Assembly: GCA_027490755.1 (NCBI GenBank)
Contig: JAIXXL010000003.1
Location: 124,001 to 188,000, forward strand
DNA: 64,000 nt
Reading direction: 5' to 3'
From: Betaproteobacteria bacterium
GTDB lineage: Bacteria > Pseudomonadota > Gammaproteobacteria > Burkholderiales > UBA3065
Shown: positions 48,848 to 64,000 of the stretch, in pieces
How positions within the stretch are numbered: the stretch's first letter is position 1
How the letters are laid out: the number at the start of each line of letters is the position of its first letter
Notes under the pieces: generated by a model
What the model saw: only the letters and a program-made list of their open reading frames with translations
Databases searched by the model: none
What the model was told of the DNA's origin: nothing
Program-made: the position numbers and the translations under genes

Positions 48848-49657
48848 CTAGGCCCAGACCAGCACCTCCGCCTTGCCGCCGTTGCCGGTGTCGCCCATCC
48901 AGCGCTGCGCGCGCGGGTTGACCGGCAGCGTCGCGAACGGCGCACCCGCCTCTTTCCACGACGCCATCAGCAGCGGCAGAAATGCCAGCGTGTGCGTGCC
49001 GCAATCGGCAAAGGTGGCGGGCAGGGGCGGGCGCTGGCGCACGATCAGCGAGCCGCGACGCATGGCATGGCCACAATGCGCACCGACGGTACCCAGCACC
49101 ACCAGCGTCCCGGCGATCATGCGCGAGGCGGCGTAGGCCCCCGCGTTGCCGGCCACCAGGATCTGCCCGCGGCGCAGCTGGTCTGCCAGCCGTTCGCCGG
49201 CGTTGCCGTGCACCACCAGCATGCCGCCCGACATGCCCTTCTTGTTGCCGGGCAGCGGCGCGCCGGCGCTGTCGCCGACATTGCCCTGCACCACGATGCG
49301 GCCCCTCTTCATCTCGCAGGCGGCGAAGTCGCCGGCGTTGCCGGTCACGGTGATCTTGCCGCCCTTCATTTGCAAACCAAGGTGGTCGCCGGCGTCGCCC
49401 TCGACGCGGATCGAGCCGATGGTCATGCCGGCACCGATGCGGTTGCAGGTCGCCCCGTTGCCCCTGAACACGATCTGCATCGTGTCGCTGCCGCTCACGT
49501 CGAAAACATCGCCGCAGGGCGTCTGGCGCCCGCCGACCAGGATCGGCAGCTTCGCCACCTCGGCGGCAGACTTGCCGGCCAGGGAATCGCAGGTCAGGCC
49601 ACCGCAGTCGATGTCGGCCGCAGGCATGCCGCGGGCGGTAAAGGTCAGCGCGCTCAT
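48848..49657 (-). CDS. fhcC: Formyltransferase/hydrolase complex subunit C
   Basis: 269 residues of a right-handed beta-helix built from repeats such as GDAGDHLGLQMKGG, GNAGDFAACEMKRG, GNVGDSAGAPLPG and GNAGERLADQLRRG. This is the GXXGD repeat of formylmethanofuran dehydrogenase subunit C. In methylotrophs the Fhc complex has lost the redox centre and hydrolyses formyl-methylofuran to formate. It is the last gene of fhcBADC, overlapping fhcD by 4 bases. It is convergent with the aquaporin gene, 32 bases apart. Confidence 0.94.
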   Translation of the reverse strand: MSALTFTARGMPAADIDCGGLTCDSLAGKSAAEVAKLPILVGGRQTPCGDVFDVSGSDTMQIVFRGNGATCNRIGAGMTIGSIRVEGDAGDHLGLQMKGGKITVTGNAGDFAACEMKRGRIVVQGNVGDSAGAPLPGNKKGMSGGMLVVHGNAGERLADQLRRGQILVAGNAGAYAASRMIAGTLVVLGTVGAHCGHAMRRGSLIVRQRPPLPATFADCGTHTLAFLPLLMASWKEAGAPFATLPVNPRAQRWMGDTGNGGKAEVLVWA

Positions 49658-50589
49658 TGGGTACCCCCCATGATGTCGTGCAGGTGGAACTGGAACTGGC
49701 CCAGCTTGCCCCCGTAGTTGCCAGCCGAGATGCGGCGGATGCCGCCCTTGGCGCCGATGTCGCAGCAGGCCTGCACGCCCACCCGGGTGGCCTCGCGCAC
49801 GTCGGCCTCGGTCAGGCCGTCGATGACGATCTCCATCACCGACTCGATGCCGGGAGAGATGTCGCTGCGCGTGATGCCGCGGATGGTCGGGCAGAAGGCG
49901 TCGTTGGTGGACGCCATCAGCGCCTTGTATTTGCTGCCGACCTTCGACCCGGAGCGCACCACCCCGCCGGGGAAGGGCATGACCACGTTCGGCAGCTTCT
50001 TCATGGCGTCGATGGCGGCCTCGCAGGCGGCCAGGGCCTCGGGCTGGCTGGTCGCCAGCACCAGAAAGTTGCCGCCGCCGACCGCGCGCACCATGCCCGC
50101 TGTTTCTTCGACCAGGAACTCGCCGTCCATCACCGGGATGCGCCAGTAGCGCTTGTTGCCGATCTTCTTGCTCTGCTGGAAGCCGTCGCCGAAGAAACGC
50201 AGGTTCTTGCCCAGATTGATCCGGTCGCCGCCGTCGATGCCGCTGAACGCAGCGCTGGTCGGCGAAGTGAGCACACACTGCCCCATCCGTGTCTCGAGCT
50301 GCTTGATGAGCACCGCCGAGCCCGCGGCGAACAGCAGCACCGAGTAGCCGGGGCGGCCGTCAGGCGTCTCGGATGGTGCCAGCTCGCGCTCGATACCGGC
50401 CTCGACGCCGCAGGCGATCACCGAGGTGGCGAAGCCGGTCATGGCGTTGGCGGCGTTGAATGCCCAGCGGTGGTTCTGCGCGGTGATGATGACGCGCGTG
50501 CCGCGCATGCCGAAGCCCTCGGCAAAGGTGTCGTCGATGACCGTGCCGTTGATCACCATATTGCGAGCGGGAGCAGTCGATTCGCTCAT
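49654..50589 (-). CDS. fhcD: Formylmethanofuran:H4MPT formyltransferase (Fhc subunit D)
   Basis: 311 residues, the length of archaeal Ftr. VIDDTFAEGFGMRGTRVIITA near the start (cited as DDTFAEGFGMRGTRVIITA), MGQCVLTSPTSAAF, LGKNLRFFGDGFQ, MPFPGGVVRSGSKVGSKYK (19 residues) and GGKLGQFQFHLHDIM at the end are conserved. It moves the formyl group from H4MPT to the methylofuran bound by subunit A. It overlaps fhcA and fhcC by 4 bases each. Confidence 0.95.
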   Translation of the reverse strand: MSESTAPARNMVINGTVIDDTFAEGFGMRGTRVIITAQNHRWAFNAANAMTGFATSVIACGVEAGIERELAPSETPDGRPGYSVLLFAAGSAVLIKQLETRMGQCVLTSPTSAAFSGIDGGDRINLGKNLRFFGDGFQQSKKIGNKRYWRIPVMDGEFLVEETAGMVRAVGGGNFLVLATSQPEALAACEAAIDAMKKLPNVVMPFPGGVVRSGSKVGSKYKALMASTNDAFCPTIRGITRSDISPGIESVMEIVIDGLTEADVREATRVGVQACCDIGAKGGIRRISAGNYGGKLGQFQFHLHDIMGGTQ

Positions 50590-52259
50590 TGCTTTCTCCC
50601 GTGGGTGCAGTCGTGGACGTGCAGCTTCGAGCCATGGCCGCACTCGCACATCTCATCGTTGGAGATCTTGAAGTTGCCCATGCGCTGCGTGCGGAAGCGG
50701 CGGAAGTGCGGCTCGATGACCTTCTCGATGCCGGGGTCGTATTCTGGCTTGACCACGTGGGTGTTGCCCCACACCACCTGCACGATCCTGCCGTCGCGGG
50801 CCACCAGCGTGCCGTCCTTGAACACGTAGTTTGGCTTGGCGAACATCTTCTCGCGGTCGGCGTCCTCGGTGTAGACGGTGATGTCGGCCGCTGCGCCCAC
50901 GCCCAGGTGCCCGCGGTCGCGCAGGCCGAGGGTCTTGGCTGGCGCGGCGCGCGTCATGATGGCGATCTCGTAGAGCGAGTACTCGCGGTCGAGCGAGCCC
51001 AGTGTCGAGAGGCCTGCGGCGTCGGTGTTGATGCGCGCCAGCTGCTCGTTGCGGAACGACTTGTCCATCAGCAGCCGGATCAGGTGTGGGTAGCTGGTGA
51101 AGGGCGCGCCGTTGGGGTGGTCGGTGGTCAGGAACACCCGCCACGGGTCGTCGACCAGCAGGAAGGTCTCCAGCCCGATGCACCACTGCAGCGCGTTCAC
51201 GAAGTTGGTGTCGCGGTACCTGAACGGCACCACGCCGCAACCGGCGTCGCACTCGATGTCCATGATCACCGACTTGGACGGGTCGGCGTGCGCCGCGTTG
51301 CGGTGCTGGCTCATGTTGTCGCCGGATGCGGTCACGGTCTGGCCGAACAGGATCTGCCCCACGTCCACCGAGATGTTCTTGTGCTTGTTGACCATCTCGG
51401 CGATGTGCGCGGCGCCGCTGGAGAACTTGCGGTCGCCCTCGGTCCCGTAGCTGTGGAACTGGATGTGGGTGAAGTGCGCCGGCAGCCCGTCGAGGGCGGC
51501 GAACGAATCCAGCGTGGTCTGCACGTTTCCGGGCACGCCGAGGTTGCAGCCGTGGACGTGCAGCGGGTGCGGCACGCCCAGATCATGCAGCGCCTGCGCC
51601 AGGGTCTTGAGGATCTGCCGCGGTGTCACGCCGTAGAAGGGCGCCTGCTCGTCAAGGTCGAGCTTGCGCTGGTTGAACTTGAAGGCCGAGATGCCACCCG
51701 GGTTGACCACCTTCAGGCCCATGGCTTGGCTGTGGGTGATGGTCCAGGCCACGTAGTCATTGATCACGCGCTGGTCGACACCGTCCTTCATCAGGCTCAG
51801 CAGCAGGTCGTCGCTGCCGAGCATGGCGTAGGCGCCCTTGTCGATGATCGGTGTGTCGCCCATCTCCATGTGTGCCTGGCGGGCGTTCACCGGCATCATC
51901 GCCGGCTCAAAACCGGCGGTGTAGCCCATCTCGGCGTAGCGGTAGCCGGTGGTGAAGGTGCTCGGCGCGGCGTGGCCGCAGCCAGACCGTTCCAGGTCGG
52001 TGGCGGCGCACAGGTCGGGCCGATGGTCCTCGGGCAGCATGGCGCGGGCGATGTTGACCTTGCCGCCACCGATGTGGGTGTGCAGGTCGATGGCGCCGGC
52101 CATCACCAGCTTGCCGCGCAGGTCGTACTCCTGGTCGACCTTGGCTCCCGGCTCGGGCGCGTCGACGATGCGGCCGTCGCGGATGTAGATGTCGCGCGCA
52201 ACGCCGTCGACGTTGTGGGCGGGGTCGATGACCTTGCCGCCAGTCAGCTTGATCAGCAT
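50586..52259 (-). CDS. fhcA: Formyltransferase/hydrolase complex subunit A (amidohydrolase)
   Basis: 557 residues, an amidohydrolase-fold metal enzyme. IDLHTHIGGGKVN near 60 gives the first metal-binding HxH; further His occur in HPLHVHGCNLG and FTHIQFHSYG, and TDHPNGAPF carries a catalytic Asp. In the methylotroph complex this subunit binds the methylofuran cofactor and hydrolyses the formyl group to formate. The C-terminal CGHGSKLHVHDCTHG is Cys/His rich. It overlaps fhcB by 7 bases. Confidence 0.95.
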   Translation of the reverse strand: MLIKLTGGKVIDPAHNVDGVARDIYIRDGRIVDAPEPGAKVDQEYDLRGKLVMAGAIDLHTHIGGGKVNIARAMLPEDHRPDLCAATDLERSGCGHAAPSTFTTGYRYAEMGYTAGFEPAMMPVNARQAHMEMGDTPIIDKGAYAMLGSDDLLLSLMKDGVDQRVINDYVAWTITHSQAMGLKVVNPGGISAFKFNQRKLDLDEQAPFYGVTPRQILKTLAQALHDLGVPHPLHVHGCNLGVPGNVQTTLDSFAALDGLPAHFTHIQFHSYGTEGDRKFSSGAAHIAEMVNKHKNISVDVGQILFGQTVTASGDNMSQHRNAAHADPSKSVIMDIECDAGCGVVPFRYRDTNFVNALQWCIGLETFLLVDDPWRVFLTTDHPNGAPFTSYPHLIRLLMDKSFRNEQLARINTDAAGLSTLGSLDREYSLYEIAIMTRAAPAKTLGLRDRGHLGVGAAADITVYTEDADREKMFAKPNYVFKDGTLVARDGRIVQVVWGNTHVVKPEYDPGIEKVIEPHFRRFRTQRMGNFKISNDEMCECGHGSKLHVHDCTHGRKQ

Positions 52260-53575
52260 GCGCGGACCTCCTGCTTCGCTTGGCCGTTTCCGGCTGGCCG
52301 CAGGATCGCGAGGATGCCGGCGGTCACGTCGGCCACTTCTGGCAGCCCGACATCGCGCAACTGGCGCATCGGCACCGCCACCGAGCTGTCGGTGCGGAAC
52401 AGGTGCCCGGCGCTGTCGATGCCGGGGATGCCGACCGGGATGAAGACGTCGCAGTCGACCCGCATGGCCGGATGGCCCAGCACCACTGTCGGCCGCTTGC
52501 CCGCTGGCGGTGTCTTGCCGGGGTCGAAACTGGACACCCAGAACAGGGCATCGGCGCGGCCCTCGGCGAGCACGCGCTCGGCATCCAGCGCCACCGGGTC
52601 GTGTTGCGGGCCGGCCGCGGAGAGGCGCGTGCGCACGGTGAAGCCGGTCTGCCAGGTGCAGACCTGGTGCGCCGTGTAGTCGCCGTCGGTGCCGCCCAAG
52701 GGCAGGCCGTTGCAGCGGGTGTGGGCGTTGAGCTCGCGGACCAGGTCGCAGGCCGACTGGATGGCCAGTTCAGCGTGGTCGAAGTCGAGGTCGGAGGTGA
52801 CCCACGCCACCACACCGTACTTCGCGGCCTTCAGCCGCTCGGCCAGGCGTGCGAGGTCGGCTAGCGGGATGCCGGCAACGGCGTCGCCGGACACGGGCGC
52901 GCCGCGCACCAGCGCACGCAGCGCCTGCGCCACCTCGCCCAGTTGCTCGTTGCGGCAGGCCAGCACCTCGGCCTTGCGGCCCCCCGGCGAGGTCGCCAGC
53001 AGCGGGTCCTTCGGCTGCCCCAGCATCACCACCTCGCGGTCCTCTGCGCCCAGGCCGAACAGGGTGTCATCGACCCACAGGCAGCGCTCGTAGAAGCGCG
53101 GCAGACGGCTGCCGATGTCGGTGCCGAAGCAGACCAGCAGGTCGGCGCGGTTACGCACCTCCGAGAGGCTGGTCACCACCCAGCCCGAATTCTGCAGCAC
53201 GTGGAAGTTGCGGAACATGCTGTAGCTGTTCATGTGGTCGACCGTGCCACCGGTGGCGTCTGCCAGTTCCATGACGCCGCGCATGCCGGGCAGATGAGTG
53301 CCGCAGCCACCGAACAGGGGCGCCTGCGCCTTGCCCAGGATCGCAGCAGCGGCAGCGACGGCCTCTTCCAGCGTGGCAGTCTTGCCGCCGATGCTGGGAG
53401 ACGCGCCAGCCTCGAGGTGGCGGTTGGCGGCGTCGAAGCCGGCTAAGGCGCGCGGGCAGTTGCCGCTTTCGATACGGACGCGTCCATGGTCGGTGGTGAC
53501 GCTAAGGTCGTCACACAGCAGCCCGCAGAAGCTGCATGGCACCTCGTGACGGGACTCGGGTGGGTGGTGGCTCAT
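52253..53575 (-). CDS. fhcB: Formyltransferase/hydrolase complex subunit B
   Basis: 440 residues related to the molybdopterin subunit FwdB/FmdB. The N-terminus has VPCSFCGLLCDDLSV and NCPRAL, Cys positions used by archaeal proteins for an Fe-S cluster. The body (LFGGCGTHLPGMRG, VCFGTDIGSRLPRF, VFIPVGIPGID) keeps the fold, but methylotroph FhcB is known to have lost the tungsten/molybdenum redox function. It is the first gene of fhcBADC and diverges from the mptG gene. Confidence 0.93.
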   Translation of the reverse strand: MSHHPPESRHEVPCSFCGLLCDDLSVTTDHGRVRIESGNCPRALAGFDAANRHLEAGASPSIGGKTATLEEAVAAAAAILGKAQAPLFGGCGTHLPGMRGVMELADATGGTVDHMNSYSMFRNFHVLQNSGWVVTSLSEVRNRADLLVCFGTDIGSRLPRFYERCLWVDDTLFGLGAEDREVVMLGQPKDPLLATSPGGRKAEVLACRNEQLGEVAQALRALVRGAPVSGDAVAGIPLADLARLAERLKAAKYGVVAWVTSDLDFDHAELAIQSACDLVRELNAHTRCNGLPLGGTDGDYTAHQVCTWQTGFTVRTRLSAAGPQHDPVALDAERVLAEGRADALFWVSSFDPGKTPPAGKRPTVVLGHPAMRVDCDVFIPVGIPGIDSAGHLFRTDSSVAVPMRQLRDVGLPEVADVTAGILAILRPAGNGQAKQEVRAC

Positions 53576-53830
53576 GCGGATCGCGCTCTCGAGTGGAGAT
53601 GGTTCTGGCAGGCAGGTCGGTTGCGGCGGGCCGGTCCCGGTGTCGCCATGTTGGCGCGGTGTCAGCCCGGACGTTGGCTTTATAAGCTGTCTTAACCTGC
53701 GGGAACGCGGAGTTTACCCCTGCCGCGTTGCGAAATGAGCATCGCCGACCGCCTCGGCCGAGTCGGCGACCTTGATGCATAATCGTCTGTGTCTAAAAAG
53801 CCGGCCCTGCGCCTGGTCATACGGAAACTC

Positions 53831-54865
53831 ATGTCCCGCAACCCGCAGGCTATGTCACGCCCCACCGCATCCTTCGCCACGGCGAGAGCCGCTCACGGCG
53901 TCTCGGTCTGGGCGCCGGCTCGTCTGCACATGGGGTTCCTCGACCTCGACGGTGGGCTGGGGCGGCGCTTCGGCAGCCTGGGCTTCACCCTCGACCATCC
54001 CGGCACCCGGGTCACTGCCACGCCGGCGGCCGACCTGCAGGTCAGCGGCATGCCGGCCGATCGCGCCAAGCGCTACATCCAGCGCGCAGCCGAGCACTTC
54101 GGGGTCGTGCCGGTGGGGCACTACCATGTCGCCGAGACGGTTCCAGCACACATCGGCCTCGGCTCGGGGACGCAGTTGGCCCTCGCGGTGGCGCGTTGCC
54201 TGTGCTGGCTCGCGGGTGTCGATGCCAGCGACGCCGAGTTGGCTCGGGCGACCGGTCGCGGCTTGCGTTCGGGCATCGGCATCGCCGGTTTTGGTCAGGG
54301 CGGTTTTCTGGTCGACGGCGGCAACCGCGGCGACGGTGTCGCGCCGCTGGTCTCTCGGCTCGACATCCCGGAGGCGTGGAGCGTGCTGCTGCTGTTCGAC
54401 GAGGTCGCCACCGGCCTGCATGGCGACGCCGAGATCGAGGCTTTCCGCCGCCTGCCGCCGTTCACTGGCGCGCGCGCCGAGCGCCTTTGCCGCGCCACCC
54501 TGATGCAGATGCTGCCGGGCCTGGCCGAGGCCGACCTTGGCGCTTTTGGCGCTGCAGTGAATCTGGTCCAGGACGAGTGCGGCGACCACTTCGCGCCAGC
54601 GCAGGGTGGACGCTTCGCCAGCCCGCGCATCAGCGCCGCACTGGCCTGGCTCGACGGCCAGGGCATCGCCTGTCGCGGACAGAGTTCGTGGGGGCCGACC
54701 GGTTTCGCCGTGTTGCCAGACGCCGCAGCAGGCAATGCAATGGCTGCGGCGCTGCGCGAGCGCTTCGGCCCGCAGGGCGTGCGCATCGAGATCACCCGTG
54801 GCCGCAACATTGGCGCCGACATCGCACCGCTGGCGGTCGGCGTCCGTGCCGCCTCGGTGGGCTGA
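53831..54865 (+). CDS. mptG: Beta-ribofuranosylaminobenzene 5'-phosphate synthase (H4MPT biosynthesis)
   Basis: 344 residues from the ATG with GGAAA before it; a GTG 42 bases upstream is also open. It joins 4-hydroxybenzoate or aminobenzoate with PRPP in the first committed step of the pterin arm of H4MPT. The GHMP-kinase-like fold shows VWAPARLHMGFLDLDG, VPAHIGLGSGTQLALAVAR and SGIGIAGFGQGGFLVDGG. It is the first gene of the rightward C1 cluster. The 255 bases between it and fhcB contain both promoters; an AT-rich patch TTTATAAGC lies near 53680. Confidence 0.9.
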   Translation: MSRNPQAMSRPTASFATARAAHGVSVWAPARLHMGFLDLDGGLGRRFGSLGFTLDHPGTRVTATPAADLQVSGMPADRAKRYIQRAAEHFGVVPVGHYHVAETVPAHIGLGSGTQLALAVARCLCWLAGVDASDAELARATGRGLRSGIGIAGFGQGGFLVDGGNRGDGVAPLVSRLDIPEAWSVLLLFDEVATGLHGDAEIEAFRRLPPFTGARAERLCRATLMQMLPGLAEADLGAFGAAVNLVQDECGDHFAPAQGGRFASPRISAALAWLDGQGIACRGQSSWGPTGFAVLPDAAAGNAMAAALRERFGPQGVRIEITRGRNIGADIAPLAVGVRAASVG

Positions 54866-54994: not shown

Positions 54995-55909
54995 ATGTCC
55001 GACTCGCCCTACATCCTGCACATGTTCACTCATGCTCCCAACGTCAGCCCGTTCGACGTGAACATGGCGGTGGACTCCGGCTACGACGTCGTCATCCCCT
55101 ACACCCACCTGACGGTCGACCAGGTGCAGGGCATGACCCAGGACGCGATCTTCTCGCGCGGCCCCAGCGGCGTGAAGCGCACCGCCATCTTCATCGGCGG
55201 CCGCGACAACGAGATCGCCAACGACATGGTCGAAGCCGCGCACCGCGCCATGGTTCCGCCGTTCGAGGTCAGCGTGTTCGCCGACCCGTCCGGCGCCTTC
55301 ACCACCGCCGCGGCGATGGTCGCCTGCGTCGAGCGCGCGCTCAAGCGCGACCACGGCACCACCCTCGAAGGCAAGCGCGTCGCCGTGATCGGCGGCACCG
55401 GCCCGGTCGGCGCGGCCGCTGCGGTGCTGTCGGCCGATGCCGGCGCCGACGTGCACATCATCGGCTACGAGCCGATGACGCAGGCCCGCACCACTGCCAA
55501 CCGTCTGGCCAGCAAGTATGAGGTTGAGATCACCCCAGCCGAGGCCGATCTGGAGCAGATCAAGCTGCGCATGATCCGCGACGCGGATGTGGTTCTGGCC
55601 ACCTCCAAGGCCGGCGTCGAGGTGCTCGGTCCGGCCGGTCTGGCCACCACGCATCATCTTCTCGTCGCGGCCGACGTCAACGCGGTGCCGCCGGCCGGCA
55701 TCGCCGGTGTCGACCTGATGGACGATGGCAAGCGCATCGACTCGGCCTCTGGCAAGACGGTGGCGATCGGCGCGCTGGCCATCGGCAACGTCAAGTACCA
55801 GACCATGCAGCGCATGTTCCGGAGCATGGTCAAGGCCGAGAAGCCGGTCTATTACGATTTCCGCGCCGCGTTCTCGTTCGCCCGCGCGTTCGTGGCCGAG
55901 GCCCGCTGA
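54995..55909 (+). CDS. mtdB: NAD(P)-dependent methylene-H4MPT dehydrogenase
   Basis: 304 residues. It oxidises methylene-H4MPT to methenyl-H4MPT. PYILHMFTHAPNVSPFDVNMA opens it (cited in part: HMFTHAPNVSPFDVNMA), the substrate residues appear in IPYTHLTVDQVQGMTQDAIF (20), and the dinucleotide fold is VAVIGGTGPVGAAAAVLSA near 124. The sequence is of the MtdB type, found only with H4MPT genes, rather than folate-linked FolD. CTGGAG precedes the ATG. It lies 129 bases after mptG. Confidence 0.95.
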   Translation: MSDSPYILHMFTHAPNVSPFDVNMAVDSGYDVVIPYTHLTVDQVQGMTQDAIFSRGPSGVKRTAIFIGGRDNEIANDMVEAAHRAMVPPFEVSVFADPSGAFTTAAAMVACVERALKRDHGTTLEGKRVAVIGGTGPVGAAAAVLSADAGADVHIIGYEPMTQARTTANRLASKYEVEITPAEADLEQIKLRMIRDADVVLATSKAGVEVLGPAGLATTHHLLVAADVNAVPPAGIAGVDLMDDGKRIDSASGKTVAIGALAIGNVKYQTMQRMFRSMVKAEKPVYYDFRAAFSFARAFVAEAR

Positions 55910-55964: not shown

Positions 55965-57203
55965 ATGACCGGAAAGTCGGACGCCGCGCCGCTGGTGGTC
56001 CTGGCGGCCTCGGCTCGCGCGTTGGCCGAGTCCCTGCGACGTGCCGGTCTGCCCGGGCAGGGCATGCCGCTGCTGGCGGTCGATGCCTTCGGCGACGATG
56101 ACCTGATGGCTGCGGTCGACGCGTGGCAGGCGTTGCCCCTGCAGCATCTGGCTCGGCCCGATCGAGTGCTGGCTGCGGTCGACGCGGCATTGCAGCGGGT
56201 GGGTAGTGGGGCCGCGGCGTCTGTCGTGATCGGCGGCGGATTCGATGGCGCTAACGACGTGCTGCACGCCCTCGCCGCCCGCTTTCGCCTGCTCAACGCG
56301 CCACCCTCAGCCTGGGCGGCAGCCCGCGACCCACTGCTGTTCAGCCGTCTCGGTATCGACGCGCCCGAGACGCAGATGCACCCCCCCAGCAACCGGCGTG
56401 GCTGGCTGCAAAAGCATGCCGGCAGCAGCGCCGGTCTTGGCGTGAATCCTGCGGCCGCGGCGCGTCCTGCCCTGACTGACGGCGCATCGCCCGATATCGG
56501 CCATGCAGCGGCGTACTGGCAGCGTCGCGCGCACGGCATCCCGGTCTCGCTGCTGTTCTGCGCGCATGCCGACGGCATCATTGCCGTTGGTATCAACCGG
56601 CAATGGTGCAGTCCGGCGCCGGGTCTCCCATTTCGTTTTGGTGGCATCGCCAGCAGCTTCGACCCCGGTGCGATGGCTCGGCAGCAGCTGGTCGCGGCGG
56701 CGGGTCGGGCCGCGGCCTCGATCGGCTTGCGCGGGCTGTGCAGCCTGGACGCGGTGCTCGAGCGTGGCGGTCGGGTCCGCGCGCTCGAGATCAACCCGCG
56801 GCCCACCGCCAGCGTCGAACTGTACGACCGCGCCGCGCCTGGCCTGATGCGCCTGCACACCGCTGCGGTCCTCGGCCACAGCCTGCCGGACTGGGCCCCG
56901 GCGCCTGGCAGCGGGGCGTTGGCTCTGGTCCGCGCGCCATGCGACCTCCACGCCGGCCCGCGTCCGCGCGGCTGCTCCGACTGGCGCGAGGGCGCGCCGG
57001 TAGCGGCCGGCGAGCCGCTGTGCACGGTCCACGCCGAGGGCCCTGATGCGCGCGACGCCATGGCCCGGGTGATGGCTTCAGCTGGCCGTCTGCGGCATCG
57101 GCTGCGCGCCGCAGCTGCAGTTGCCGCCCCGGACGCAGAAGCGTTTTTCTACAATGCCCCCGATACTTCGTCCAGATCAGTCCCTAGGAGAGACCATGCT
57201 TGA
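55965..57203 (+). CDS. ATP-grasp protein of the H4MPT cluster, function unassigned
   Basis: 412 residues from the ATG; a GTG two codons earlier is possible. The ATP-grasp elements are NRRGWLQKHAGSSAGLGV (phosphate-lid region near 145), the central PVSLLFCAHADG, and the metal site LCSLDAVLERGGRVRALEINPRPT (cited: VRALEINPRPT). An unusual C-terminal extension with HAGPRPRGCSDWREGAPVAAGEP looks like a lipoyl/biotinyl-type or lid segment. Such enzymes join a carboxylate to an amine or similar. It sits between mtdB and mch, so a step in H4MPT or methylofuran maturation is the likely job. The end overlaps the mch start by 8 bases. Confidence 0.8.
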   Translation: MTGKSDAAPLVVLAASARALAESLRRAGLPGQGMPLLAVDAFGDDDLMAAVDAWQALPLQHLARPDRVLAAVDAALQRVGSGAAASVVIGGGFDGANDVLHALAARFRLLNAPPSAWAAARDPLLFSRLGIDAPETQMHPPSNRRGWLQKHAGSSAGLGVNPAAAARPALTDGASPDIGHAAAYWQRRAHGIPVSLLFCAHADGIIAVGINRQWCSPAPGLPFRFGGIASSFDPGAMARQQLVAAAGRAAASIGLRGLCSLDAVLERGGRVRALEINPRPTASVELYDRAAPGLMRLHTAAVLGHSLPDWAPAPGSGALALVRAPCDLHAGPRPRGCSDWREGAPVAAGEPLCTVHAEGPDARDAMARVMASAGRLRHRLRAAAAVAAPDAEAFFYNAPDTSSRSVPRRDHA

Positions 57204-58176
57204 TATGAGCCCGGGTCAGTGGCCCAGCCTTGGCGCCACCGTCCAACCCCTGGTGGAGCGCCTGGTGCGCGATGCCCGCGCACTGCGTGTCGGCGTCAGC
57301 CGCGCTGCCAACGGTGCCACCATCGTCGATGCGGGCGTCAAGTCGCCCGGTGGTGTCGAGGCGGGCCGCCTGATCGCCGAGATCTGCCTCGGCGGCCTCG
57401 GCCAGGTCTCGCTCTCCTACGCACCCTACGAGCGCTGGTCCTGGCAGATCGTGGTCAGCACCTCCAACCCGCTGCTCGCTTGCCTGGGCTCGCAGTACGC
57501 CGGCTGGAGCCTGTCGCACGGCGACGGCAAAGACGCCTTCTTCGCCCTCGGTTCGGGCCCCGGTCGCGCCCTGGCTGGCCGTGAAGAGCTGTTCAAGGAG
57601 CTCAACTACAAGGACCAGCACGACCAGTGCGTGCTGGTGCTGGAGACCGACAAGGTGCCGCCGCCCGAGGTGATGGACAAGGTCGCCCGCGACACCGGCG
57701 TGCCGACCGAGCGCCAGACCTACATCCTCACGCCGACCCGCAGCCTCGCCGGCGCGACGCAGGTGGTTGCGCGCGTGCTCGAGGTCGGTCTGCACAAGGC
57801 GCACACCGTCGGCTTCCCGCTCGACCACATCCTCGACGGCCACGGTGCCGCGCCGCTGTGCCCCTCGGCGCCGCAGTTCATGGACGCCATGGGCCGCACC
57901 AACGACGCCATCCTGCTGTGCGGCGAGGTGCACCTGGTGGTGCTTGGCCCCGACAGCGACGCCCGCGATCTGGCCGAGAAGATGCCCTCCTGCACCTCGC
58001 GCGATTACGGCAAGCCGTTCGCCGAGGTGTTCAAGGCGGTCAACTACGACTTCTACAAGATCGACCCGGCACTGTTCGCGCCGGCGGTGGTGTCGGTGAC
58101 GTCCTACGAATCTGGCCGCACCTACCGCGCCGGCAAGGCCAATCCGGAACTCCTCGACCAGTCCTTTGGTGCCTGA
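57196..58176 (+). CDS. mch: Methenyl-H4MPT cyclohydrolase
   Basis: 326 residues. It opens methenyl-H4MPT to formyl-H4MPT, feeding Fhc. VSRAANGATIVDAGVKSPGG near 37, CLGGLGQVSL, NPLLACLGSQYAGW and ALGSGPGRALA are conserved, as are CPSAPQFMDAMGRTNDAIL (19) and TSRDYGKPFAEVFKAVNYDFYKID near the end (cited in part: YGKPFAEVFKAVNYDFYKID). ACTAGGAGAG-type sequence (TAGGAGAGACC) precedes the ATG. It overlaps the genes on both sides. Confidence 0.96.
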   Translation: MLDMSPGQWPSLGATVQPLVERLVRDARALRVGVSRAANGATIVDAGVKSPGGVEAGRLIAEICLGGLGQVSLSYAPYERWSWQIVVSTSNPLLACLGSQYAGWSLSHGDGKDAFFALGSGPGRALAGREELFKELNYKDQHDQCVLVLETDKVPPPEVMDKVARDTGVPTERQTYILTPTRSLAGATQVVARVLEVGLHKAHTVGFPLDHILDGHGAAPLCPSAPQFMDAMGRTNDAILLCGEVHLVVLGPDSDARDLAEKMPSCTSRDYGKPFAEVFKAVNYDFYKIDPALFAPAVVSVTSYESGRTYRAGKANPELLDQSFGA

Positions 58177-59065
58177 GGCGCCCAGAGTCCTTGTCGCCAC
58201 CGATGACGCCGGCTGGCATGGTCGGCGCCTCGACGCTGCGCTGATCGCGCGCGGCCTCAAGCCGGTCACCGCCAGCCTGCGCGACTGCCGCATCGACCTG
58301 ACACGGCCGTCCGGAATCGCCATCCCGGGCTTTGAGGACGCGCTGAGCGGTCTGCCGCACGCGGTCTTCGTGCGCGGTATCTCGGGTGGCTCGCTGGAAC
58401 AGATCACGCTGCGTCTGGACGTGCTGCACGCGCTGCAGGCGCTCGGCGTGCCGGTCTTCAACCACGGCCGTGCGATCGAGAAGAGCGTCGACAAGGCGAT
58501 GACCAGCCTGCTGCTGCACCGTGCCGGCATCCCGACGCCGCCGACCTGGGCCTGCGAGTCGCGCGAGCAGGCGCAGGCGGTGGTGCATGCCGAGGCCGCT
58601 GCTGGCCACGAACTGGTGATCAAGCCGCTTTTCGGTTCGCAGGGCATCGGCGTGCAGCGCGTCGCCGGGCGCCAGCTGCCGCCGCCGGAGCAGTTCCGCC
58701 ACGCCTACTACCTGCAACGCTTCGTCGACACCAGTGAGGCTGGCTGGCACGACTTCCGCGTCTTCGTCATCGGCCGCGAGGTCGCGGCGGCGATGATCCG
58801 TCGTGGCAGCGACTGGATCAGCAACGTCGCCCAGGGCGCGCGCTGCGAGGCGGTACCGGCCGAGGGCGAACTGGCGCGGCTGGCGGTGGACGCCGCCGCC
58901 GCGCTCGACATGGACTACGCCGGCGTCGACCTCATCCGCGGCCGCGACGGGCAGCTCATGGTGGTCGAGGTCAACGGCATCCCGGCCTGGCGCGGCCTGC
59001 AGTCGGTGTGCGGCTTCGACGTGGCGCAGCGGCTGGTCGATCGGCTGCTGCCAAAGGTGGCCTGA
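58166..59065 (+). CDS. RimK-like ATP-grasp ligase of the H4MPT cluster
   Basis: 299 residues with a GTG start overlapping mch by 11 bases. The ATP-grasp domain shows VFNHGRAIEKSVDKAMTSLL, the phosphate loop VIKPLFGSQGIGVQRV near 152, and the metal site MDYAGVDLIRG ... VVEVNGIPAWRGLQ. It resembles RimK/MptN-type enzymes that add alpha-glutamate to a cofactor tail, so it may build the glutamate tail of the pterin or of methylofuran. In Methylobacterium a comparable gene (orf5) lies beside mch. Acceptor unknown. Confidence 0.85.
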   Translation: MVPEAPRVLVATDDAGWHGRRLDAALIARGLKPVTASLRDCRIDLTRPSGIAIPGFEDALSGLPHAVFVRGISGGSLEQITLRLDVLHALQALGVPVFNHGRAIEKSVDKAMTSLLLHRAGIPTPPTWACESREQAQAVVHAEAAAGHELVIKPLFGSQGIGVQRVAGRQLPPPEQFRHAYYLQRFVDTSEAGWHDFRVFVIGREVAAAMIRRGSDWISNVAQGARCEAVPAEGELARLAVDAAAALDMDYAGVDLIRGRDGQLMVVEVNGIPAWRGLQSVCGFDVAQRLVDRLLPKVA

Positions 59066-59979
59066 TGGCGCCCGTTCCGCCGCGCCTCGGGACGGGCGAT
59101 TCCGCGCCCACCCCCCTGCAGCGGGCCCTGCTGCGCGCCTGCCGCGCCGACGTCGAGGCCTTCAAGCCGGGCAACGTTGCGATCGGCGCGCCGGCGCACC
59201 GCATGACCGCCGACGACTTTCTGCGCAGCGCCGAGGTGGTCTTGGCGCCGCTCGCGGATGCGGGCTTGGCGCTCGGCGCGCGCATCGAGGCCGCGGTGGC
59301 CGCCACCATCGCCGCCGTAGGCTGCAACACCAACCTGGGCATCGTGCTCCTGCTGGCGCCGATGGCCGAGGCGGCCATCAGGGCTGCAGCGGCTCGGCAA
59401 CCGCCGCTGCGCTGGCGCGAACACATGTCGGCTGTGCTGGCCGCGACCACGGTCGCCGATGGTGCTGCGGTGGCGCGCGCCATCCTGCTGGCCCACCCTG
59501 CCGGGCTCGGGGGCGCGCCCGAGGCGGATGTCTCTGGTGCCGGGTCCGCAGGGGGTGGCTTCAGCCACACCCTGTATCAGGCCATGGCCCTTGCCGCTGG
59601 CCGCGACCAGATCGCGCGCCAATATGTGTCCGGTTTTGCCACGGTGCTGGCCATGGCGGATCGCTTGCGCGACCTCTTGCGCCAGGGTGCCACGCGGGAG
59701 GATGCAGTGACCGCCGTGTTCGTCCGCCAGCTGGCGGCGGAGCCGGACACCCACATCTGTCGCAAACATGGTGCTGATAGCGCGGGCGAAGTCCGGCACC
59801 GGGTGGCAGAGTTGGCGGACGAGTTGCCCAATCCGCCACGCTGGTCTGTGGCAGAAGTACGTCGAATGGCAAGTCTTCACCATGAATTGCTGGCGCAACA
59901 GGTCAACCCAGGCACCACGGCCGACCTGATAGTTGCAGCAGTTTTCGCTACAGAACTGGACGCAATGCAGAACTTTTAG
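59065..59979 (+). CDS. CitG/MdcB-like (triphosphoribosyl-dephospho-CoA synthase family) protein of the H4MPT cluster
   Basis: 304 residues. CRADVEAFKPGNVAIGAP near 33, GCNTNLGIVLLLAPMAEA (18) near 92, and ISGAGSAGGGFSH-like DVSGAGSAGGGFSH match the CitG/MdcB family, which transfers a ribosyl-type group to dephospho-CoA. No citrate or malonate lyase genes are nearby, and an equivalent gene (orf7) is a regular member of bacterial H4MPT clusters. A related ribose-transfer step in cofactor synthesis is therefore plausible but not shown. The ATG overlaps the previous stop (TGATG). Confidence 0.83.
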   Translation: MAPVPPRLGTGDSAPTPLQRALLRACRADVEAFKPGNVAIGAPAHRMTADDFLRSAEVVLAPLADAGLALGARIEAAVAATIAAVGCNTNLGIVLLLAPMAEAAIRAAAARQPPLRWREHMSAVLAATTVADGAAVARAILLAHPAGLGGAPEADVSGAGSAGGGFSHTLYQAMALAAGRDQIARQYVSGFATVLAMADRLRDLLRQGATREDAVTAVFVRQLAAEPDTHICRKHGADSAGEVRHRVAELADELPNPPRWSVAEVRRMASLHHELLAQQVNPGTTADLIVAAVFATELDAMQNF

Positions 59980-60070: not shown

Positions 60071-60580
60071 ATGGCAAAGATCGATCGCGTGATGGTGGGC
60101 GAATCCCTGGTTGGTGACGGCAATGAAGTTGCTCACATCGACCTGATCATCGGCCCCCGCGGCTCGGCTGCCGAAGCTGCGTTCTGCAACACGCTGACCA
60201 ACAACAAGGACGGCTTCACCTCCCTCCTCGCAGTGGTTGCCCCGAACCTGATGTGCAAGCCGGCCACCGTGATGTTCAACAAGGTCACCATCAAGGGCGC
60301 CAAGCAAGCCGTCCAGATGTTCGGCCCGGCACAACGCGGCGTCGCCATGGCAGTTGCTGATTCGGTCGAAGACGGCACCATCCCGGCCGACGAAGCCGAT
60401 GACCTGTTCATCTCGGTCGGCGTGTTCATCCACTGGATGGCCGAAGACGACAAGAAGATCCAGGACTACAACTACACCGCCACCAAGGAAGCTCTGGCCC
60501 GCGCCGTCAAGGGCGAGCCGAAGGCCAAGGACGTGGTTGCAGCCAAGGGCACCTCGGCTCACCCGTTCGCCGCCCACTAA
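60071..60580 (+). CDS. fae: Formaldehyde-activating enzyme
   Basis: 169 residues. Fae condenses formaldehyde with H4MPT to methylene-H4MPT, the entry of the pathway. [20 protein letters not shown] with the conserved His22, [33 protein letters not shown] (20) and [13 protein letters not shown] are nearly identical to characterised Fae. AAGGAG lies 8 bases before the ATG, a very strong ribosome-binding site, and codons are of the preferred type, both fitting an abundant protein. A nearly identical paralogue follows after 96 bases. Confidence 0.98.
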
Positions 60581-60676
60581 GTCGTACGCCGTCCGCCCCC
60601 GTTGTCTGCAACGGGGGCGGATGCCAGACGATACGGTCCGTCCGCACGGGCGGGCCGGCACCGCAAGGGAGTCAAC

Positions 60677-61327
60677 ATGGGAATCCTCGACAGCATCCTC
60701 AGCGCGCTCGGCCTCAAGTCGCAGCCTGCTGCTCCGGCGCCTGCACCCGCGCCAGCACCTGCTGCCGCAAAGCCCGCAGCCGCCAAGCCGGCGGCCGCAA
60801 AGCCCGCCAGCAAGCGCTCGGCCAAGATCAACAAGGTCCTGATTGGCGAGTCGCTGGTGGGTGACGGCAACGAGGTCGCGCACATCGACCTGATCATCGG
60901 CCCGCGGGGTTCCGCAGCCGAAGGTGCCTTCAACAACAGCCTGACCAACAACAAGCACGGCTTTACCGCCCTGCTCGCTGTGGTCGCGCCGAACCTGATG
61001 GCCAAGCCGAACTGCGTCATGTTCAACAAGGTCACCATCAAGGGTGCCAAGCAGGCGGTTCAGATGTTTGGTCCCGCCCAGCGCGGCGTGGCGATGGCGG
61101 TGGCGGATTCGGTCGAGGATGGCACCATCCCGGTCGATCAGGCCGACGACCTGTTCATCTCGGTCGGCGTGTTCATCCACTGGGATGCCTCGGACGACAA
61201 GAAGATCCAGGACTACAACTACCGTGCCACCCGTGAGTCGATCCAGCGTGCTGTCGCTGGTGAGCCGACGGCCAAGGACGTGATCGCCCAAAAGGGCAAG
61301 GCCACGCACCCGTTCGCGGCACACTGA
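60677..61327 (+). CDS. fae2: Second formaldehyde-activating enzyme with N-terminal amphipathic peptide and Ala/Pro/Lys linker
   Basis: 216 residues. The Fae domain (about 48-216) is very close to the upstream copy and keeps the conserved His at 69 ([10 protein letters not shown]), so it should be active. In front are 47 extra residues: [14 protein letters not shown], an amphipathic helix with Ile/Leu at 3, 4, 7, 8, 11 and 13, then a linker of PA and AAKP repeats. GCAAGGGAG precedes the ATG. The extension resembles targeting or membrane-docking tags rather than any part of Fae. The gene ends in a strong terminator. Confidence 0.95.
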
Positions 61328-61402: not shown

Positions 61403-62095
61403 CTATCGGCGCAGCGCGCCGGTGTGCAGCGCGGTGGCGACCAGAACAGCCGACGCTCCCGCTGCCCGGAGTGAACCCAGGTCGCCCCGGTCCCTCACAC
61501 CGCCGGCCGCGACCCACGCCCTGTCCGCGGCAATCCCCATGCAGGTCTCCAGCCACGTGCCGACGCCCCCCGCCGAGTTGCCCACCCGTGTCAGGTCCAT
61601 GGCGATGACGTCGCGTGGCCAGAGCCCGGGGCGCTGCAGTATGCCGGCTGGGTCACGCGGTCCCTGCGCATCGTGGTCCAGCGACAGGATCCACCGTGCC
61701 TGCGCCAACCCACTCGAGGCATCGGCCAGACCGTCGAGCGTGGTCAGGGATTCGCTGCCGATCACGGGGACGCATCCGTGCGCCGCGGCCGCCATGGCTG
61801 CCGTGGCATCACCAAAGCCAGCGTCGACCCACAGCGGCACCGGGGATGCCCTGCTCAGCTTATCCAGCAGGGCCCACTGCGCCTTGCCGGCAACGATGGC
61901 GTCGAGGTCGGCCACGTATGCGGCAGGGGTCCGCAGCCCGGCGCTGGCCACGGCCTCGAGCATCGCCTCGAGCACAGCCACCGGTTCGCTGCCCGCGAGC
62001 AGCCCCGAACGCAGAGGCGCGTAGGATGCGCGTTCGCCCCGTCTGGCATGCACCACGATGCCATCGCGGATGTCGAGGACCGGAACTATGTCCAT
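61403..62095 (-). CDS. HisA/HisF-like TIM-barrel protein of the H4MPT/methylofuran cluster
   Basis: 230 residues. MDIVPVLDIRDGIVVHARRG is a HisA-type start with the catalytic Asp in VLDIRDG; YVADLDAIVAG and VWVAAGGVRDRGDL keep the second catalytic Asp region and the phosphate-binding loop. It is not the histidine-pathway enzyme by context: no his genes are near, and the related hisA/hisF family occurs in methanogens and H4MPT-using methylotrophs. A role in cofactor synthesis is inferred. The ATG overlaps that of the divergent gene by two bases. Confidence 0.85.
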   Translation of the reverse strand: MDIVPVLDIRDGIVVHARRGERASYAPLRSGLLAGSEPVAVLEAMLEAVASAGLRTPAAYVADLDAIVAGKAQWALLDKLSRASPVPLWVDAGFGDATAAMAAAAHGCVPVIGSESLTTLDGLADASSGLAQARWILSLDHDAQGPRDPAGILQRPGLWPRDVIAMDLTRVGNSAGGVGTWLETCMGIAADRAWVAAGGVRDRGDLGSLRAAGASAVLVATALHTGALRR

Positions 62096-63071
62096 GAAGC
62101 TTCTTCTGATCGAGTCGGTGACTGCCGGTGCATTCAACCGGCCGCTTGAGCACGGCCTGCTGGAGGAGGCTGAGTCGATGCTCGGCGCCATGGTAGCCGA
62201 GACCGCCGCGGGCACCGCTGCGGCGCGAGCTGGCGTGGCAGCGCGTCTGCTGCGGCGGCAGGGGATGTCGCCGCGCTGGCCCGGCATCGCCGCGCCGGTG
62301 GCCGACGGTGCGTGGTCGGCCGCCTGGCAGGCGGCGCTGTCCAGCAACGACGCGGTCTGGCTCCTGGCGCCCGAGACCGGCGGCGAACTCGCTGCCCTGG
62401 CGTGCGAGGTCGAGGCGGCGGGTGTCCGCCTGCTCGGGCCGTCGTCCCGGGCGGTGGCGGTCGCCGCATCCAAGTCGGCGTGCCATGTGGCCCTCGCTGG
62501 CCGCGTTCGTCAGCCGGCTGACCTGCCCGGTAGCGGTGGCTGGGTGGTCAAGCCGGACGACGGTGTCGCTGCATGTGGGGTCCACCGCCTGGCGGCCGGC
62601 GCGTTGCCCGCCGTGCCCCCGCAACACCTCGTCCAACCCTTCGTCGAGGGCGCCGCCTTGAGCCTGAGCGTTCTCAGCGATGGGCGCGATGCCCGCGTGC
62701 TGTCGGTCAACCGGCAAGACGTCGGCTGGGATGCCGGTGGCGCCGCGAATTACCGTGGCGGCGTCACCAATGCCATCGCCGACCGCACCCGTTTCCTGCC
62801 GCTGGCGCAGGCGGTGCAGGCGGCCATCCCGGGCCTGTGGGGCTGCTGGGGCATCGACTGCGTCCTGCCGCCGGATGGCGAGCCGGTCCTCATCGAGGTC
62901 AATCCTCGCCTGACCACTGCCTTCGTGCATCTTCGCGCCGCCACCGGCTTCGATGTCCTTGGCGCATTGCTGGCGCTGGCTGCTGGTGAGCCACTGGCTA
63001 CGCTGCCTGAGGCAGCGGCAGGGCAGCCGGTGCCCTTCCGTCTCGCAGGCACCCTCGAGGCCACCCCATGA
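62094..63071 (+). CDS. ATP-grasp ligase, MfnD-like (tyramine-glutamate ligase type)
   Basis: 325 residues from MKLLLIESVTAGAF. The ATP-grasp parts are SKSACHVAL (start of the domain), GGWVVKPDDGVAACGV (phosphate loop near 145), VQPFVEGAALSLSVL, and the metal site GCWGIDCVLPPDGEPVLIEVNPRLTT (cited: VLIEVNPRLTT). In methanogens the ATP-grasp MfnD joins tyramine to glutamate for methanofuran; the next gene is MfnF-like, which supports this reading. The substrate is inferred. It overlaps the following gene by 4 bases. Confidence 0.78.
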   Translation: MKLLLIESVTAGAFNRPLEHGLLEEAESMLGAMVAETAAGTAAARAGVAARLLRRQGMSPRWPGIAAPVADGAWSAAWQAALSSNDAVWLLAPETGGELAALACEVEAAGVRLLGPSSRAVAVAASKSACHVALAGRVRQPADLPGSGGWVVKPDDGVAACGVHRLAAGALPAVPPQHLVQPFVEGAALSLSVLSDGRDARVLSVNRQDVGWDAGGAANYRGGVTNAIADRTRFLPLAQAVQAAIPGLWGCWGIDCVLPPDGEPVLIEVNPRLTTAFVHLRAATGFDVLGALLALAAGEPLATLPEAAAGQPVPFRLAGTLEATP

Positions 63072-64000
63072 GCGGCTGGGTCTGCGGTTGGGACATCGGC
63101 GGCGCCCACCTCAAGGTCGCCCTGCGCGACCCGTCCGGACGCTGGGTGCAGGTGCGCCAACTGCCGTGCCCACTCTGGCAGGGCATCCCTCATCTTGCCG
63201 ACGCCTTGCAAAGGGTGGTTCAGGGCTGGCCGGTCGGTGCGACACAGGTCCTGCACATCGCCACCATGACCGGCGAATTGGTAGATGCCTTTGATGACCG
63301 CACCGAGGGCGTCCTTGCCATCGTCGACTGCAGCGAGTCGGCCTTTGTCGGGGCATCCTGGCGCTGGTTCGGCCTCGACGGACGTCTGCTCAACGGCGCC
63401 GCTGCACGCCGTGACCCGCTGCAACTGGCCTCGGCCAACTGGTTGGCCACCGCCAGCTGCGCCGCTCGCCACGGCGACGGCCTGCTGATCGACATCGGCT
63501 CCACCACCACCGACATCGTCGCGCTGGCGGCGGGGGCCGCTCGCCCGCTCGCCCTGACCGATGGCGCACGTCTTTCCATGCGTGAACTGGTCTACCGCGG
63601 CGTGGTGCGCACGCCCCTGATGGCGGTCGCCGCCAGCGTCGACTGGCGCGGCGAACCCCGGCCGCTGATGGCCGAACATTTCGCTACCAGCGCCGACGTC
63701 TTCCGGCTCACCGGCGATCTTGACGAGGCAGCAGACGCCTGGCCGGCGGCGGATGGCGGCGCAAAGACCCCGGCAGGCAGTGCCCGTCGCATCGCGCGGA
63801 TGCTCGGTGAGGACCTGCCTGCGGCCAGCCTCGACCTGTGGCGCGAGGTGGCCGGCCAGCTGGCCGGGGCCATGACCGGCAGCATCGTCGATGCCGCCGG
63901 TGCCGTGCTGGCGGCCGCGCCGCCGCTTGCGCAGCCGCGGGTGGTCTGCGCCGGTGCGGGGCACTGGCTGGCGGCGCGTGTCGCCGCGCAACTGGGTCTG
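63068..64000 (+). CDS. MfnF-like H4MPT-linked C1 pathway protein (hydantoinase/oxoprolinase-related), cut by window edge
   Basis: At least 311 residues; the frame runs off the right edge. WVCGWDIGGAHLKVALRD is the first phosphate-binding element of the actin/Hsp70-like ATPase fold and GLLIDIGSTTTDIVAL near 139 the second; VVCAGAGHWLA near the edge is the adenosine motif. The family is a regular member of bacterial H4MPT clusters. Its archaeal relative MfnF forms the ether link of methanofuran from the aminomethylfuran diphosphate and glutamyl-tyramine. It follows the MfnD-like gene with a 4-base overlap. Confidence 0.85.
   Translation, partial: MSGWVCGWDIGGAHLKVALRDPSGRWVQVRQLPCPLWQGIPHLADALQRVVQGWPVGATQVLHIATMTGELVDAFDDRTEGVLAIVDCSESAFVGASWRWFGLDGRLLNGAAARRDPLQLASANWLATASCAARHGDGLLIDIGSTTTDIVALAAGAARPLALTDGARLSMRELVYRGVVRTPLMAVAASVDWRGEPRPLMAEHFATSADVFRLTGDLDEAADAWPAADGGAKTPAGSARRIARMLGEDLPAASLDLWREVAGQLAGAMTGSIVDAAGAVLAAAPPLAQPRVVCAGAGHWLAARVAAQLGL

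Follow-up and report, generated by a model that had tools for sequence, protein, structure and literature searches.

The stretch of DNA analysed here (the window) comprises 64,000 nucleotides of contig JAIXXL010000003.1 from a Betaproteobacteria bacterium (assembly GCA_027490755.1, positions 124,001 to 188,000) and carries an island of genes for the cofactors tetrahydromethanopterin (H4MPT) and methylofuran, within which a gene of the CitG superfamily, orf7, is the main subject of this report. The original prediction, made from the sequence alone, had placed genes for an ATP-grasp protein, Mch, a RimK-like ligase and a CitG-like protein between mtdB and fae, and these four genes do form one overlapping run at the positions claimed (Table 1), with overlaps of 8 bases between the ATP-grasp gene and mch, 8 bases between mch and the RimK-like gene and 1 base between the latter and the CitG-like gene. 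The RimK-like gene starts with GTG, an alternative TTG start at 58166 being possible. The gene order matches the order mch-orf5-orf7-fae-orf17 published for Methylosinus trichosporium, where fae is present twice (mch-orf5-orf7-fae-fae-orf17; PMC3615186; this and the other papers cited here, except PMC8305020 and PMC4169470, are cited from excerpts), and because of this agreement the RimK-like gene is taken as Orf5 and the CitG-like gene as Orf7. Orf5 and the product of the ATP-grasp gene before mch, OrfY, are called MyfB and MyfA below.

A contig scan showed how regularly this arrangement recurs. The best 80 of 575 confirmed Orf7-type loci, drawn from at least 594 stretches and biased to near relatives, were compared with the window; among the matches listed, all loci were titled as proteobacteria or unassigned bacteria. 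MyfB or Fae was present within the locus in 80 of 80 cases, and the gene arrangement is therefore not due to chance. In counts that vary with how far each contig extends around the locus, the neighbours were MyfB (75), Fae (67), Mch (59), Orf17 (57) and MyfA (55), and more rarely MfnD (49), MfnF (47), MptG (42) and MtdB (25).

The phylogenetic profile against mch, a check proposed together with the original prediction, was obtained for three samples of genomes. Among 398 genomes of the window's phylum, matches to the CitG family were detected in 51, MCH in 18 and MptG in 22 (20 of them over the cut-off), and all 61 CitG matches were read individually. Proteins of the Orf7 type, which carry the signature PG[TSA].AD together with D[ST]H..RK.G (slight departures occurring in single rows), were found in each of the 18 genomes with MCH, in 0 of the 380 others (Fisher p 1.5e-31), and always lay beside H4MPT or methylofuran genes, whereas proteins of the CitG/MdcB type, mostly with PGG.AD, were found in 38 genomes and never beside such genes; five genomes possess both types. 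Of 41 relatives, 12 have MCH, and the Orf7 type was present in exactly these 12, once as two separate frames, and absent from the remaining 29. In a genus mate (G001, contig C69, 38238-39043), L015 and L017 together make up a single orf7, which is interrupted either by a frameshift or through an error of assembly. In the third sample, 249 genomes from a different order, 7 of 60 matches, at 23-32 bits, were counted as not of the Orf7 type, and Orf7 was detected in 52 of 52 MCH genomes (205-349 bits) and in a single one (G465) of the 197 others. MptG was likewise present in all 52 MCH genomes (48 over the cut-off, one of the four matches below it being a 27.7-bit fragment) and was not found in G465. 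Over the three samples, which overlap, Orf7 accompanied mch in 82 of 82 rows; given this overlap and the non-independence of related genomes, p-values overstate the association, and the pattern still spans many families. From the profile it is evident that the presence of Orf7-type genes follows that of mch and mptG nearly without exception, and homologues widespread in organisms without H4MPT, which were looked for in these samples, were not found.

Plasmids gave a similar picture. When 72,556 plasmid records were searched, each of the 36 with an Orf7 match (35 bacterial and one haloarchaeal) also had an MptG match. In the opposite direction, among the matches listed (40 of 41 MptG records), four records had MptG without Orf7; three of these match only distantly (24-28%), and the fourth is a haloarchaeal plasmid.

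The exceptional copy in G465 (L188, 9990-10775) has an open frame in a genome with neither mch nor mptG. It has lost 14 of the 36 positions that are at least 97% conserved in the 65 other sequences, the losses including K34, N37, V38, N88, N90, K234, N281 and G283, and in a leave-one-out comparison no functional member of the Orf7 type lost more than two of these positions. A tblastn search with the window's proteins detected no other island gene within 20 kb around it. This copy looks like a relic left after loss of the pathway, and the motif therefore appears to be kept only where the pathway is. A gene of the dihydropteroate-synthase type lies 0.7 kb from it.

Orf7 is a clear member of the CitG superfamily (PF01874, 189 bits against a gathering cut-off of 27) and fails the equivalog models for CitG and MdcB (TIGR03125 and TIGR03132), reaching 21.4 of the required 272.3 bits and 24.5 of 282.35 bits, respectively. 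In a maximum-likelihood tree of 69 proteins, Orf7, a haloarchaeal protein and the Archaeoglobus fulgidus protein 3h9p stood opposite all proteins of the CitG/MdcB type with support of 100/100, the archaeal branches being long and their placing subject to a warning from the tree program. Left out of the tree were L015, L017, L018, L111, L113, L119, L156, L160 and L162, for which short stretches only were available; the last six all belong to the CitG/MdcB type (SPGG.AD) and have no H4MPT gene as neighbor, and L018 is a fragment of 56 residues (KPGLV). One alignment (A4) was made from 48 of the 80 loci and the window. The residues K34, P35, V38, N88, T89, G92, D228, P282, G283, A286 and D287 are common to both clades at 93% or more, and Orf7 differs from CitG/MdcB at N37 (L in the latter), N90 (H), P99 (L), N281 (S) and T284 (G), which suggests a shared core with a changed pocket. 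N281, T284, P99 and D132 of the Orf7 side recur in the two archaeal proteins. Structural modelling, the second check proposed, was also carried out. The model of Orf7, built with 49 sequences (predicted local distance difference test, pLDDT, 90.5), has the fold of A. fulgidus 3h9p (chain A; Z 24.5, root-mean-square deviation 2.2 over 219 residues), all other structural matches having Z scores of 3.8 or less, foremost among them adenosine diphosphate (ADP)-ribosylhydrolases. The analysis documents the genomic setting of orf7, its co-occurrence with H4MPT genes, the separation of its clade, its fold, its conserved core and the decay of the motif where the pathway has been lost.

In methanopterin, the ribitol derives from ribofuranosylaminobenzene 5'-phosphate (RFAP) and is followed by an α-linked ribose 5-phosphate and then by 2-hydroxyglutarate in a phosphodiester link, whereas the bacterial form of H4MPT stops after the ribose. 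An α-linked ribose is found both in methanopterin and in the cofactor of citrate lyase. MptG, the RFAP synthase, converts phosphoribosyl pyrophosphate (PRPP), an α-glycosyl donor, into a β product. CitG starts from adenosine triphosphate (ATP), a β-glycoside, and releases adenine as it forms an α 1-2 link; the triphosphate is used in the next step, when pyrophosphate leaves. For malonate decarboxylase, the prosthetic group is made by MdcB and MdcG together (PMC5534430). Since Orf7 has the CitG core and is found only where MptG is, it is a natural candidate for an α-ribosylation with ATP as donor. We infer, for reaction, donor and acceptor alike, that Orf7 adds the second ribose of the H4MPT side chain with ATP as preferred donor, a reading to which we would give about two chances in three. 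That Orf7 has a role in H4MPT biosynthesis is highly probable, and that it transfers a ribosyl group, from whichever of the two donors, is likely. In the proposed reaction, C1 of a ribose 5-phosphate unit would be joined in α configuration to the ribitol hydroxyl of the pterin-aminophenyl-ribitol intermediate, the acceptor hydroxyl displacing adenine with inversion (β N-glycoside to α O-glycoside) as in CitG/MdcB, and a 5-triphosphoribosyl product would be formed. Dephospho-H4MPT would arise in bacteria by subsequent trimming of the phosphates. In archaea, the triphosphate could be the target of an attack by 2-hydroxyglutarate in which pyrophosphate is lost, a parallel to the step that follows in the systems of citrate lyase and malonate decarboxylase. 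A ribosyl transfer by the CitG-like protein to a new acceptor had already been suggested in the original prediction, and it is the best explanation of this protein.

Orf7 might instead take the second ribose from PRPP and give the 5-monophosphate directly. MptG, which belongs to the same pathway, uses PRPP (PMC6787355), and all of the profile evidence would fit this donor equally well. The residues K34, N88, D228 and D287, kept in common with CitG/MdcB, suggest however that the donor is the same as in those enzymes. One inversion from PRPP would, moreover, produce a β link where methanopterin has an α link, and PRPP as donor is regarded as unlikely. Profile and context establish membership of the pathway only, and would be equally satisfied if Orf7 acted at some other step of H4MPT biosynthesis, for instance by handling a ribosyl phosphate intermediate without forming a glycosidic bond. 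This is rather improbable, as Orf7 retains the catalytic core of a ribosyltransferase family and the structure of the cofactor demands one ribosyl transfer beyond that of MptG.

In most loci, orf7 lies between myfB and fae, and it could accordingly be asked whether Orf7 acts on methylofuran, like its operon neighbors MyfA and MyfB. In bacteria the two cofactors occur together: with the window's own genome set aside, MfnB was present in 17 of 17 mch genomes tested among the 398, and it was also present in 4 of 4 genus mates, PF04476 (MfnB) not being found in the window's own genome, a 2.06 Mb assembly that is 79% complete. Among 14 control genomes, the CitG family was detected in Escherichia coli, Methanocaldococcus jannaschii, Haloferax volcanii, Sulfolobus acidocaldarius and Methanosarcina acetivorans, mptG in the same four archaea, MCH in three of these archaea but not in S. 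acidocaldarius, and mfnB in M. jannaschii and M. acetivorans only. The CitG family thus goes with MptG in H. volcanii and S. acidocaldarius, where mfnB is absent, and therefore the pterin rather than methylofuran is indicated. A Natrinema plasmid (L128, 9941-11385) has a DUF447 gene immediately after the CitG gene, which does not sit with furan genes, and mptG lies elsewhere on the same plasmid; on a Halobellus plasmid (L193, 7986-9688), DUF447 stands between mer and mptG. DUF447 is part of the H4MPT island in Aquabacterium, and its product may be an enzyme of the side chain that is linked to this module. The orf7 gene of Azospirillum comes immediately after mch, and neither myfA nor myfB adjoins it. 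Methylofuran itself contains no sugar. Taken together, these observations make an action of Orf7 on methylofuran quite improbable, and the excerpts of the 2021 study of the methylofuran enzymes do not mention Orf7 among them (PMC8141765). The original prediction had left it undecided whether the genes around mch finish the pterin or the methylofuran; cofactor biosynthesis is borne out, and the evidence now points to a division in which Orf7 belongs to the pterin and the ATP-grasp genes to methylofuran. That Orf7 is an ordinary CitG/MdcB making a prosthetic group derived from coenzyme A (CoA), as annotated records state (triphosphoribosyl-dephospho-CoA synthase), is hardly credible in view of the 21.4 and 24.5 bits scored against the respective models, of its separate, fully supported clade and of the 5 of 398 genomes that carry a true CitG/MdcB type as well.

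Several points weigh against a second ribosylation by Orf7 with ATP as donor. The α linkage of methanopterin, on which the stereochemical argument turns, is taken from general background, and the choice of ATP comes from reasoning by homology and stereochemistry. Because the genes of both cofactors co-occur in bacteria, the assignment to the pterin rests on the four control archaea, two haloarchaeal plasmids, one A. fulgidus protein of solved structure and the chemistry, and the CitG matches of the control archaea are matches at the level of the Pfam family, irrespective of subtype. Two genomes (G055 and G211) have a gene of the MptG family without Orf7, MCH, CitG or MfnB. This gene lies in a different setting without H4MPT genes, adjoining the gene of a P-loop (AAA-domain) nucleotide-binding protein that is fused to a Ham1-like domain in G055 (L182, 3307-5947; L183, 4834-6545); the MptG-family gene probably belongs to another pathway, perhaps of the C-nucleoside type, and was not retained as a counter-example to the pairing of Orf7 with MptG. 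Finally, haloarchaea are said to lack methanopterin-specific enzymes (PMC8305020).

A wider scheme would extend the citrate lyase cofactor logic to a one-carbon carrier: the α-ribosyl phosphate arm of methanopterin would be built from ATP, with adenine displaced, through a 5-triphosphoribosyl intermediate, to which archaea would add hydroxyglutarate and which bacteria would trim to dephospho-H4MPT, and the module of MptG, DUF447 and a CitG-like protein in haloarchaea, which are credited with folate, together with MptG and CitG in Sulfolobus, would indicate a methanopterin-type side chain there too. This scheme is tentative and, as a whole, doubtful; if it were true, the reduction that yields the ribitol could be assigned to DUF447 as a candidate.

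A survey of methanogens in 2011 estimated that seven proteins of methanopterin biosynthesis were still unknown (PMC3087415), and growth of Methylorubrum extorquens on methanol depends on every gene of the island (PMC8141765). Deletions of mch and fhc are reported to be obtainable only in a strain negative for mptG (PMC4169470). In the open-licence literature, no paper linking CitG to methanopterin and no named enzyme for the second ribosylation of methanopterin were found, subscription papers lying outside this scope, so that novelty is provisional; the excerpts of PMC9982363, PMC2680597, PMC7325909, PMC6787355 and PMC6193120 mention neither the second ribosyl step nor Orf7. Orf7 is thus a known gene, named without a function in the papers cited here, for which a specific role with strong circumstantial support is now proposed: it probably attaches the second ribose to methanopterin and bears the name of a coenzyme A enzyme in error. 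Methanopterin genes are essential to methylotrophs and methanogens, and Orf7 offers a named candidate with a conserved active site and a predicted donor, which makes this gap directly testable. If the proposal is true, it corrects a widespread annotation in methylotrophs and archaea.

The part of the original prediction that treated the two ATP-grasp ligases as unsolved cofactor steps is already explained, since work published in 2021 showed the matching proteins to act as glutamate ligases of methylofuran. Hemmann and colleagues reported that OrfY and Orf5 are needed for methylofuran and renamed them MyfA and MyfB, that orfY and orf5 mutants accumulate methylofuran forms with one and two glutamates, that the glutamate chain is lengthened when Orf5 is overexpressed, and that MyfA adds the second glutamate of methylofuran, the last being shown for Methylobacillus flagellatus (PMC8141765). 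The RimK-like protein of the window, encoded directly after mch, is a member of the RimK family (TIGR00768, 167.9 bits against a cut-off of 143.4) and reaches 206 bits with the model for MptN, the H4MPT glutamate ligase (NF040720), below its equivalog cut-off of 350; its position and its similarity to MptN fit an assignment as putative MyfB. An ATP-grasp protein is encoded in the same place, before mch, in 55 of 80 homologous loci, and from its place, its family and the presence of a separate MfnD-like gene, the protein of the window would correspond to OrfY/MyfA; it aligns only weakly with the window's MfnD-like protein (28% over 153 residues, E value 0.06). The C-terminal extension of this protein had been thought unusual. 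It turned out to be an ordinary lobe of the PurT/PurK type common to the family, since it is conserved in all 20 homologues of alignment A5 (20 of the 80 loci, aligned with the window), with P351, C353 and A357 invariant, and since residues 3-384 of the predicted structure (pLDDT 86.3) align with PurT (1kj8; Z 28.8, root-mean-square deviation 3.7 over 336 residues).

Table 1. Genes of the cofactor island in the window, with positions counted from its first letter.
Feature	Position	Strand	Basis and remarks
fhc genes (formyltransferase/hydrolase complex)	49654..53575	-	Open reading frame reading; same order on annotated Azospirillum plasmid NZ_CP029831
mptG (beta-RFAP synthase, first ribose of H4MPT)	53789..54865	+	TIGR00144, 162 bits, cut-off 113.5; true start maybe further in
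mtdB (methylene-H4MPT dehydrogenase)	54995..55909	+	PF09176, 123 bits
orfY/myfA (ATP-grasp ligase, 412 residues; putative methylofuran glutamate ligase by correspondence)	55965..57203	+	PF02655, 28.9 bits, cut-off 23.2
mch (methenyl-H4MPT cyclohydrolase)	57196..58176	+	TIGR03120, 398 bits, cut-off 228.8
orf5/myfB (RimK/MptN-like; putative methylofuran polyglutamate ligase by correspondence)	58169..59065	+	TIGR00768, 167.9 bits; NF040720, 206 bits
orf7 (CitG superfamily, 304 residues; proposed alpha-ribosyl (5-triphosphoribosyl) transferase of H4MPT biosynthesis)	59065..59979	+	PF01874, 189 bits
fae	60071..60580	+	TIGR03126, 252 bits
second fae copy, N-terminally extended	60602..61327	+	TIGR03126, 243 bits over residues 80-238
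orf17 (HisA/HisF-like; start approximate)	61403..62098	-	TIGR00734, 71.7 bits
mfnD-like/orf1 (tyramine-glutamate-ligase-like ATP-grasp)	62094..63071	+	NF040722, 63.5 bits, under cut-off 400
mfnF-like/orf9, runs past window end	63068..64000	+	Position, by reading; annotated record has hydantoinase-family gene in such context

Downstream of orf7, the second of the tandem fae genes (60071-61327) encodes an additional N-terminal stretch, some 55-80 residues long and rich in Ala and Pro. The gene orf17 is divergent from the MfnD-like gene, and its homologue in M. extorquens is required for methylofuran, its reaction being described as unknown (PMC8141765). Directly after the island lies a gene for a PabB-like chorismate-binding enzyme (from window position 63891 past the window's end; L180, 1892-3520), which is followed by a gene for an MfnE-like kinase (L180, 3623-4150).

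Compared with the studied methylofuran systems, the MyfA and MyfB candidates of the window belong to the same superfamily and cluster as OrfY/MyfA and Orf5/MyfB, and they are assigned by context and family alone. As in M. flagellatus, a separate MfnD-like gene lies downstream of OrfY, and the order mch-orf5-orf7-fae and the similarity to MptN are features in common with MyfB, so that by correspondence these neighboring ATP-grasp genes may extend the glutamate chain of methylofuran. For Orf7, the closest structure is that of the putative CitG-like protein 3h9p from A. fulgidus, for which we know of no tested function; it shares the fold of Orf7 at 23% identity and falls into the same tree group, but it sits on a long branch and the solved chain aligns only from residue 39, so that the KPGN motif is not visible. 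The ADP-ribosylhydrolases ARH3 and DraG, which act on an α ribose bond, recur as the next-best structural neighbors, and with Z scores of 3.8 or less, in the noise range of helical proteins, they are kept as a lead, no kinship being claimed. With CitG and MdcB, Orf7 shares the superfamily and the conserved core, and the donor chemistry is probably the same, whereas its scores below both equivalog cut-offs, its own clade, its pocket residues and its constant association with H4MPT genes set it apart as an enzyme that probably serves a different acceptor.

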